Shown here: in pieces, positions 173 to 2,731 of the stretch
Layout of the letters: every line of letters starts with the position of its first letter
Position numbering within the stretch: the first letter of the stretch is position 1
IMG/VR virus record: IMGVR_UViG_3300028666_000023
Location: 129,845 to 193,844 of that record
From: a virus
Length of the DNA stretch: 64,000 nucleotides
Direction: 5' to 3' (one strand)
Program-made: the position numbers and the translations under genes
Notes under the pieces: generated by a model
The model's database searches: none
The model's input: only the letters and a program-made list of their open reading frames with translations
What the model was told of the DNA's origin: nothing

Positions 173-208
173 AAAAAAGAAGGCGCGCCGATCGCTCGAC
201 GCGCCTTC
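173..208 (-). terminator. Intrinsic terminator after HNH/tmRNA unit
   Basis: On the minus strand a 9 bp perfect stem, GAAGGCGCG / CGCGCCTTC, closes a 12 nt loop and is followed by six T residues. It lies between the HNH gene (ends 320) and the MazG-like gene (starts 155). The 209-319 stretch before it contains no convincing gene. Confidence 0.85.
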
Positions 209-319: not shown

Positions 320-679
320 TCATCTGTACAGCGCGTTCACCTCTCGGTGCGCCTTGCGGCACGCATCACAACGGCACTTCCAACGCGGGCTGGTGTACCG
401 TGTGTTGACGCCATGAGGAGGCGCTGCTTCCTGACTCGTCTTCTCCTGATGGCAGTCGTGGCAAAGAATTTGGCACTTGGCCAGTTCCTTTGCTCTGCGT
501 TTCGGAGACCACGACCACACCTTATGATCAATCTTCGTTGCGCGATTGACGTGGTCGACCTCGAGACGATCAGAGGAACCACACTGCTTGCAGACCTTGC
601 CTCGTAAGAAGTCGGCTCGGTTCTTCGCAACCCACTCGCGCTGATACGTCCGCTGTCTTTCTGGATCTTTGTATCCCAT
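320..679 (-). CDS. HNH endonuclease (free-standing homing type)
   Basis: This is a 119 aa protein with the treble-clef HNH pattern: CKQCG near residue 30, DHVN about 13 residues later (D-H of the first motif), and CHDCH near residue 75. A second C-x-C-x-x-C cluster lies near the C-terminus. The family nicks or cuts DNA and spreads by homing. The ATG at 679-677 shares its A with the last base of the encoded CCA of the tmRNA, so the ORF begins exactly where the tmRNA ends. No Shine-Dalgarno is visible. An in-frame extension upstream to 793 exists but would run antisense-free through the tmRNA itself and is rejected. Confidence 0.85.
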   Translation of the reverse strand: MGYKDPERQRTYQREWVAKNRADFLRGKVCKQCGSSDRLEVDHVNRATKIDHKVWSWSPKRRAKELAKCQILCHDCHQEKTSQEAAPPHGVNTRYTSPRWKCRCDACRKAHREVNALYR

Positions 680-1023
680 GGTGGACCCGGCGGGTACTGC
701 CCCCGCGTCCGACAAGTGCCCAACAACATCCTCTGTCACGTGCGTAGTCGCTGTATCCCCAGCGACTGAGTCCCGTCGATTCGGCAACGGCACCTACTCT
801 TCTTCGATTCCTCACTGCTGATGGCGAAGTACATCAGTCAGCCAGCTCTGTGGGTTGGCACCGGCTTCGCTACTAGAGCACCTTGCTAGCCGATGGCTCA
901 GGCCGCTTGCGCGACGAGGGCGGTTGCGTTGTCGTTCGCAACTGACGTTGCCCGTTTGAATGGACCGGGCGCCACTGCACGCAGATGTCGTCTTCTTCTA
1001 GCCGTCGAATCTATTTCGGGCCC
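679..1023 (-). ncRNA. ssrA: tmRNA (transfer-messenger RNA), one-piece
   Basis: The minus strand shows every part of a tmRNA. The acceptor stem is GGGCCCG (1023-1017) pairing with CGGGTCC (689-683), 7 bp with one G-U, followed by A and an encoded CCA (681-679). The conserved GATTCGACGG block is at 1011-1002. A tag reading frame (939-898) starts at resume codon GCG after CAGTT and reads ANDNATALVAQAA then TGA, matching the AND-x-A...AA form of ssrA tags. The 3' part has GAGGATGT and CGGACGCGGG as in E. coli tmRNA. P2 pairing (CGTGC with GCACG, TCTG with CAGA) is present. The T arm is GCGGG/CCCGC with loop GGCAGTA, which departs from the usual TTCRANY. It rescues stalled ribosomes with SmpB; no smpB is seen here. 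It starts 5 nt after the stop of the 1029-1202 gene, so it is probably co-transcribed and then processed. Confidence 0.93.
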
Positions 1024-1486: not shown

Positions 1487-2310
1487 CAGTCTTCTTCTTC
1501 GTGGTCGTACCCCATGAACCTCTTCAGAGTGCCGAGCATCTGCGTCTTCATGTGGGAGATCTGTTGATCGGTCTTCTTCATCTTCTTTGCGAGCAGGCCC
1601 GTCGATGTGATCTGGGGATGGTCGTTCGTTCCGAAGACGTGGTTGAAGAGCGTGTGCATCTCGGGCTTCTGGGGGAAGAGATCGTGCAGCGACTTCGACG
1701 CCACAGCGATCTGCTCGTCCTCGAAGCTCGGGAAGTGGTCGTCCATCCCCTCGAGCGAGCTCGCCGGAACGTCACGACGTTGTGCCTTCAACACGGTGTC
1801 GATTCGCTTGGCAGAGATGTTCTGGAACTCTTGTTCCCCGCTCGACTGCAGATGTGACGCGATCTCCGTGCTCGTCGGCTCGCGCCCGTACTGCTCGGTG
1901 AGCTCCTCCTTCGCCACGTTGATGGGCGTGATGAGCGCAGCCTGGCCCGCGGGGATGTAGGCCATGTTCTGGTTCTTGAGGTTGTACCGCTGCGCCTTGC
2001 GGAGGCGGTAGTTCACGTGCGTGTTGAGAGACGCGCCCTTGTTCGGGTCGTACGTCTCGAGCGCGTTGATGAAGTGCTTCTGGAGCTCTCCCTTGAATGC
2101 GCTCTCCGGCGCCGCGTGCGGCGCGCGGTAGTGCCGCATGCGCATCTGCATGAGCGGCTCGTACGCTTTGAGCAGGGGCTCGAGGTGCTCGGGCTTGCGC
2201 GTCTTGTACCAGCGCTTCCAGAGATCGAGCTCCTGCTCCTTTCGGTCAGCCTTCGCGGCTTCCTTCGCTTGGAGGTGAACCTCCAACGGATTCGGTTTGC
2301 GCGCTGCCAT
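1486..2310 (-). CDS. Sigma-70-like RNA polymerase sigma factor
   Basis: The 274 aa protein has a region-2-like stretch (FINALETYDPNKGASLNTHV, then LRKAQRYNL), a region-3-like stretch ending YGREPTSTEIASHL, which is the classical REPT-x-x-EIA signature, and a C-terminal helix-turn-helix segment (KMKKTDQQISHMKTQM) at the place of region 4. It would direct host RNA polymerase to phage promoters. The start at 2310 (MAARKPN) is chosen because the ORF upstream of it is arginine/serine-rich shadow and overlaps the neighbour. Its first 65 nt overlap the end of the 2246-2731 gene. It lacks an obvious region 1.1. It is a candidate reader of the repeated GGGATAAGA motif at 17.6-20.9 kb. Confidence 0.8.
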   Translation of the reverse strand: MAARKPNPLEVHLQAKEAAKADRKEQELDLWKRWYKTRKPEHLEPLLKAYEPLMQMRMRHYRAPHAAPESAFKGELQKHFINALETYDPNKGASLNTHVNYRLRKAQRYNLKNQNMAYIPAGQAALITPINVAKEELTEQYGREPTSTEIASHLQSSGEQEFQNISAKRIDTVLKAQRRDVPASSLEGMDDHFPSFEDEQIAVASKSLHDLFPQKPEMHTLFNHVFGTNDHPQITSTGLLAKKMKKTDQQISHMKTQMLGTLKRFMGYDHEEED

Positions 2311-2731
2311 CTTCGTTCCCTTCCAGTTTGAGATAGATCGAGTCGTGGATTTGGTGCTCGATACTAACTTTCTTGCCGAGTATCTGAAGAGTGTCCGCCA
2401 ACGGCCCCGACTGCAGAAGGAAGCCGGAGATGCTCCCCGACAATGCGGACTTCTCAACCGCCTTCTGGAAAGCCTCCATGTGTGCGTGCTTCTGCAACTC
2501 CTCGAGCACCTCCGTCGCCCCCACACCGCGTGCGATCGCGAGCTTGAGGACCGTGCTCTGCGACAGGAGTCCACGCATAGCGAGCTTCTGGTACGGAGCG
2601 ATGTCGAAGGGGAGCGGGCGCAGGATGGCGAGCTCCGTCGCCGCGAGCTCCTCGAGCTCCTTCTGTTGTTTGTTCCAGGTCGCGTAGTCCTTGGCGTTCT
2701 TCAAAGCCCAGCGAACGGTGTGCTTCTTCAT
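2246..2731 (-). CDS. Unknown 161 aa protein
   Basis: The protein is mostly helical and leucine/alanine rich, for example ELEELAATELAILRPLPFD near residue 30, with an acidic serine-rich tail. No family is recognised. The ATG at 2731 overlaps the upstream stop as ATGA. Its 3' end overlaps the sigma factor start by 65 nt in another frame. Confidence 0.65.
   Translation of the reverse strand: MKKHTVRWALKNAKDYATWNKQQKELEELAATELAILRPLPFDIAPYQKLAMRGLLSQSTVLKLAIARGVGATEVLEELQKHAHMEAFQKAVEKSALSGSISGFLLQSGPLADTLQILGKKVSIEHQIHDSIYLKLEGNEDGSAQTESVGGSPPSEGSREG

Follow-up and report, generated by a model that had tools for sequence, protein, structure and literature searches.

The DNA analysed here (the window) is a stretch of 64,000 nucleotides that runs from base 129845 to the last base, 193844, of a virus record, that of a 194-kb phage. 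Close to its beginning, on the minus strand, lie a tmRNA gene, an HNH endonuclease gene that starts on the last base of the tmRNA, and an intrinsic terminator (Table 1). Upstream of the tmRNA, an ORF at 1489-2313 (-) matches phage sigma factors weakly (phrog_351, E 4.8e-6). About 3.6 kb from the tmRNA, a cysteine-rich ORF at G000:C1:126378-126962 (-) (L012:9378-9962) looks as if it encoded a second HNH/endonuclease VII-type protein, unrelated to the first. The record holds only two other tRNAs, some 56 kb from the tmRNA at G000:C1:74154-74381 (-) (L009:15654-15881), one of which is missed by ARAGORN.

Table 1. Features of the tmRNA-HNH locus (window coordinates)
Feature	Position	Strand	Description
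tmRNA gene	679..1023	-	345 nt; RF00023 full length; four phage relatives 55-61% identical
tmRNA tag reading frame	898..939	-	ANDNATALVAQAA*; resume codon GCG to stop TGA; read from sequence
T-arm	690..706	-	GCGGG-GGCAGTA-CCCGC; T-loop 695-701 non-canonical
3' acceptor strand	683..689	-	CGGGTCC; pairs with 1023-1017; G3.U70 alanine identity pair kept; from fold and sequence
Encoded CCA	679..681	-	its A doubles as first base of the HNH ATG
HNH endonuclease ORF	320..679	-	119 aa, ATG to TGA ending at 320; phrog_4234; AlphaFold model
HNH/zinc core	449..592	-	C30xxC33...DH43...C69xxxC73xxxH77; invariant in 42 aligned relatives
Intrinsic terminator	179..208	-	13-bp stem then TTTTTT; only one found on the minus strand downstream of tmRNA and HNH

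The tmRNA, the HNH protein and their junction

The tmRNA gene scores 89.6 bits against the RF00023 covariance model (gathering threshold 47) and covers the model completely, from position 1 to 374. Its tag frame is open and ends in a degron-like AA, the same form as in the four closest tmRNAs (L055-L058), whose tags start with ANDN and end with AA and a stop. The acceptor stem (GGGCCCG/CGGGTCC), which includes the G3.U70 pair that marks an alanyl tmRNA, forms together with the T-stem. The T-loop is unlike the consensus TTCRANN, and this is presumably why ARAGORN does not detect the gene. That the odd T-loop marks a pseudogene was considered and rejected, since tag frame, acceptor stem, G3.U70 and T-stem are all intact and T-loops with G54/G58 are found in other phage tRNAs. 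Judged by its sequence, this is a genuine and apparently functional phage tmRNA gene.

The four closest tmRNAs end in ACCG, ACTC, ACCG and ACGC respectively. As none of them encodes a CCA, the CCA of the window tmRNA may be a by-product of the HNH start codon. The earlier note had proposed comparing related tmRNAs with and without the HNH ORF; all four exist without it. Behind each of them (L055 from 488 onward (+), L056 from 3363 downward (-), L057 from 1024 downward (-) and L058 from 9267 onward (+)) we observed a hairpin, after which comes a terminator-like hairpin. The 3' arm of the first (GGTGGA) and the 3' end of the tmRNA (TCCACC) are complementary, so that this hairpin could compete with the acceptor stem.

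Positions 54 and 58 of the T-loop covary in the array tRNAs of phages (loci L071-L221, n=515: T-A 484, A-T 13, G-G 8, A-A 7, other 3). From the sequences, this looks like the use of alternative 54-58 pairs, which may influence how the tRNAs are modified or whether tRNA finders detect them. The G-G type is seen in the window tmRNA and in a tRNA of locus L074 (GGCAGAG).

The HNH ORF matches phrog_4234 (HNH endonuclease) in PHROGs over its full length (E 1.8e-38, residues 1-118, profile positions 1-120 of 130). It is filed under this family rather than under PF01844 HNH, for which it scores 18.3 bits against a Pfam gathering cut-off of 21.4; PF01844 matches at E <= 0.01 in 27 of its 42 relatives. 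The zinc and catalytic residues C30, C33, H43, C69, C73 and H77 are intact in the window protein and invariant across these relatives. The AlphaFold model (mean pLDDT 94.6) has a strand-strand-helix core (E39-43, E69-73, H74-84), and structure comparison matched it weakly to the HNH enzymes of the PDB (GmeHNH, Z 4.4; GVE2 HNH, Z 4.0); no sequence relatives were found there. The fold predicted by the model is that of a bba-metal HNH endonuclease, an assignment that rests mainly on motif and topology because the PDB matches are weak.

On the minus strand, base 679 belongs both to the tmRNA CCA (681-679) and to the HNH ATG (679-677), just as the earlier note had described, and the HNH gene starts 2 nt after the discriminator base N73. 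The overlap does not result from a wrongly chosen start codon, because the N-terminal M-x-Y-K-D of the family aligns with M1 of all relatives, including the ATG at 679, which is hence the conserved family start. Neither a Shine-Dalgarno (SD) sequence nor a -10 box was found before this ATG, and a scan for sigma-70-type sites only gave no promoter-like site near the tmRNA or the HNH gene. Furthermore, no terminator was found separating the two genes, no remnant tRNA was found between the HNH gene and the terminator at any useful score, and folding of the precursor gave no clear structure around the ATG.

The genomic niche of the HNH family

Two scans of viral contigs yielded 100 distinct relatives of the HNH protein, 96 of them usable; they are the best-scoring ones and not a random sample. 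A tRNA lies within 1.5 kb of the HNH gene in 69 of the 96, and in 44 a co-directional tRNA or tmRNA 3' end is found 0-60 nt upstream of the HNH start, the opposite arrangement being seen only twice. Annotated relatives sit within tRNA arrays of Mycobacterium phages of cluster C (LinStu, Salacia, Alice, Dandelion) and cluster M (PegLeg, SlimJimmy), of Streptomyces phages and of one Pectobacterium phage. Ordinary tRNAs precede most of these genes, and most fetched flanks contain no tmRNA; only three relatives of the 96 (L082, L152, L153) lie behind a tmRNA, with gaps of 20-27 nt. The earlier note had regarded HNH genes starting far from any tmRNA as evidence against its reading. Such genes are indeed the rule as far as tmRNAs are concerned, but they usually lie near a tRNA. 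The position of the HNH gene behind the tmRNA exceeds chance, the family being strongly tied to tRNA and tmRNA 3' ends. On these sequence grounds the window HNH is best described as a putative homing endonuclease of tRNA arrays that has settled at a tmRNA 3' end, and not as an obligate partner of tmRNA.

The flanking tRNAs are consistent with spread or amplification of a tRNA segment by homing: the tRNAs on either side of an HNH gene share their isotype in 11/30 cases, compared with 49/341 for other neighbours (p 0.004). A duplication of the tRNA around the nuclease gene is a possible origin of such flanks. In the 11 cases the two tRNAs differ in anticodon; the loci are L075, L078, L101, L102, L105, L113, L122, L130, L137, L154 and L203. 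At many loci, L089, L109, L130, L137, L142 and L144 among them, the HNH frame runs into the next tRNA gene, so that the C-terminus of the protein is translated tRNA sequence. We make no claim that T-loop changes confer immunity to the nuclease through loss of its cut site: non-canonical T-loops occur in 10/41 tRNAs just upstream of an HNH gene and in 67/510 elsewhere, figures that are suggestive at best and partly reflect mis-registered loops. Searches with the HNH protein and with the neighbouring sigma-like protein found no close relatives of the window phage, and hence no HNH-less allele (empty site) was seen; a search of a phage collection found no nucleotide relatives either.

Expression of the HNH gene and the origin of the junction

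Sorting the loci by the gap between the tRNA or tmRNA and the HNH start gave three classes, which were set after viewing the data. Where the gap is 10-22 nt, an SD match is present in 11/15 loci (1.1 expected). With gaps of 23-60 nt, a -10 box is present in 12/19 (2.2 expected), mostly 6-8 nt before the ATG, which is a leaderless layout. In the adjoining class (gaps of -1 to 9 nt), which includes the window, PegLeg, SlimJimmy and Phredrick, neither signal was found in any of the 15 loci, an absence that is partly forced, as tRNA sequence fills the space in question. Twelve loci have a gap of up to 4 nt, and here the HNH gene starts 1-6 nt past N73 (1 nt in PegLeg, L122, L202 and L212). The window thus has the anatomy of tRNA punctuation, with a start codon within a few nucleotides of N73 and neither SD nor promoter of its own.

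The reading that we favour, with a probability of about 55%, is that a free-standing homing endonuclease of phrog_4234 lies behind a functional tmRNA and is made from the tmRNA precursor, most likely through a cut near the discriminator base. With no promoter, no terminator between the genes and a strong one after the HNH gene, the simplest reading is a single transcript carrying both genes and presumably ending at the common terminator (208-179). The HNH would be produced from this precursor because its ATG has neither ribosome site nor promoter of its own. The most likely route would be a cut near the discriminator base, leaving a nearly leaderless mRNA that begins CC-AUG, as in mitochondrial tRNA punctuation; after a cut directly behind that base, nucleotidyl transferase would restore the CCA of the tmRNA. 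Alternatively, the HNH could be translated from unprocessed read-through RNA.

The two routes are weighed differently by the window and by the family. An encoded CCA inhibits the RNase Z of many bacteria and favours exonucleolytic 3' maturation. Since the window tmRNA encodes its CCA, cleavage behind N73 may be inefficient at this locus, which somewhat favours the route through unprocessed RNA here. On the other hand, adjoining starts recur behind tRNAs that lack a CCA, which favours the cut at the discriminator base in the family. More generally, 3' maturation of the tRNA or tmRNA might create a leaderless HNH mRNA in a recurrent subset of phrog_4234 genes, tying nuclease output to maturation, with CCA and start codon competing for one base in the window; this generalization we put forward only tentatively.

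As for its role, the nuclease most likely serves homing, by analogy with other endonucleases of phage tRNA regions: it would cut alleles of the tRNA or tmRNA region that lack the HNH gene and spread by copying of the segment, of which the niche and the dispersal over many tRNA isotypes are what is seen here.

It is quite conceivable, though not what we favour, that the junction is a coincidence of a compact array, the HNH gene having landed close behind the tmRNA with an overlap devoid of function; its translation would then begin weakly, with no SD, from within a long transcript. HNH genes begin no more than 1 nt from a tRNA end in 5/44 cases and other ORFs of the same loci in 7/60, which is about as often; this control, made up of mechanical ORFs that follow tRNAs and span 90 aa or more, is rough and biased to small gaps. 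The exact one-base overlap alone is hence not significant, as other array ORFs adjoin tRNA ends as often. At L070:1543-1876 (-), a different phage tmRNA is likewise overlapped by an unrelated ORF (MIPRKAIESLVRENNELK...), the A of the CCA being the A of the ORF's ATG; a pattern scan found no canonical tmRNA ending in CCATG. Against coincidence, the ATG occupies the start position conserved in the family, and adjoining HNH genes recur on separate branches of the HNH tree (L202, L212, L207, L109, L122, PegLeg, Phredrick and the window).

Rather more doubtful is mutual exclusion, which the earlier note had raised and in which one precursor would give either tmRNA or HNH: a downstream cut followed by exonuclease trimming to the CCA would remove or break the HNH start, leaving unprocessed RNA as the only source of the nuclease. 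The shared base 679, the single common terminator and the lack of an SD or promoter for the HNH gene all fit this scheme, as does the encoded CCA with the exonucleolytic maturation that it favours. Exclusion would operate in a host that matures the tmRNA by trimming back from a cleavage point beyond the CCA; cleavage behind the discriminator base, by releasing an HNH mRNA almost without a leader, would defeat it. It is in any case not a common trait of tmRNA-HNH pairs, because the other three (L082, L152, L153) have gaps of 20-27 nt with an SD or a -10 box.

The earlier note had offered two origins for the junction, and neither stands as it was put. The first, a mobile unit in which tmRNA and HNH travel together between phages, is very unlikely, and as a general rule it is already largely refuted. 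The pair is kept together in the three tmRNA-associated relatives, whose HNHs form one clade (99/91) in a tree of 104 rows; the window HNH, however, lies elsewhere in the tree, and the tmRNAs of the three are only 45-47% identical to that of the window. No bootstrap tree unites all four HNHs, although the starred branches, taken by themselves, are compatible with a single origin. In addition, the closest relatives of the tmRNA lack the HNH, and most relatives of the HNH lie behind ordinary tRNAs, with no tmRNA in the fetched flanks. With separate HNH clades and such low tmRNA identity, the most direct reading of the sequences is that tmRNA and HNH came together on more than one occasion.

The second origin was insertion at the tmRNA 3' end as a classical insertion point. 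Part of this survives, as tRNA and tmRNA 3' ends are the niche of the family and related tmRNAs exist without the HNH; what does not is insertion in the manner of an integrase. The latter is highly improbable even though integration at tmRNA 3' ends is a known phenomenon and an element in ssrA has been reported (PMC2593044), for the ORF encodes an HNH nuclease and not an integrase, and a search of the record, including the part downstream of the HNH gene, found no att-like copy of the tmRNA 3' end (the longest further match being 12 nt, E 1.1).

Comparison with known systems

The closest known counterparts are the HNHs found in the tRNA arrays of cluster C and cluster M mycobacteriophages, which belong to the same family as the window HNH (phrog_4234, 35-50% identity over the full length) and likewise sit just behind a tRNA gene, those of PegLeg and SlimJimmy starting 0-3 nt from the ends of a tRNA-Asp and a tRNA-Gln. 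The window differs from these arrays in that the partner is a tmRNA and no tRNA is nearby. SegB, from the tRNA region of T4/T6, resembles the window HNH in placement, being a free-standing homing endonuclease of phages whose gene lies together with tRNA genes. It is a GIY-YIG nuclease and thus of a different class. In a passage of PMC5966550 that cites Pope et al. 2014, an HNH is given as the most widespread CDS of mycobacterial tRNA arrays. SegB is described as shown to spread or amplify a tRNA segment in passages of PMC13096335 and of PMC6409571 (citing Brok-Volchanskaya 2008), and for the HNH endonucleases of phage tRNA regions a role in spreading or amplifying the tRNA genes around them is assumed (PMC5966550, PMC6409571, PMC13096335).

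In animal mitochondria ORFs adjoin tRNA genes, so that tRNA excision would leave leaderless mRNAs; the likeness of the window to this system is one of anatomy only. Leaderless mycobacterial genes (PMC4633059) have a layout like that of the phrog_4234 relatives with 23-60 nt gaps and a -10 box 6-8 nt before the ATG, whereas the window HNH has no such promoter.

The comparison links an odd junction to a general rule, namely that a large phage HNH family starts directly behind tRNA-type genes, in three expression layouts. Should tRNA processing underlie the adjoining layout, bacterial viruses would have a counterpart of mitochondrial tRNA punctuation, and a selfish nuclease would be coupled to tRNA and tmRNA maturation. 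The cultured phages with this layout, PegLeg, SlimJimmy and Phredrick, provide a concrete set for the question. What is known, then, is the HNH homing endonuclease of tRNA arrays; what is new is its placement at a tmRNA 3' end with a one-base overlap, and the layout that this exposes.
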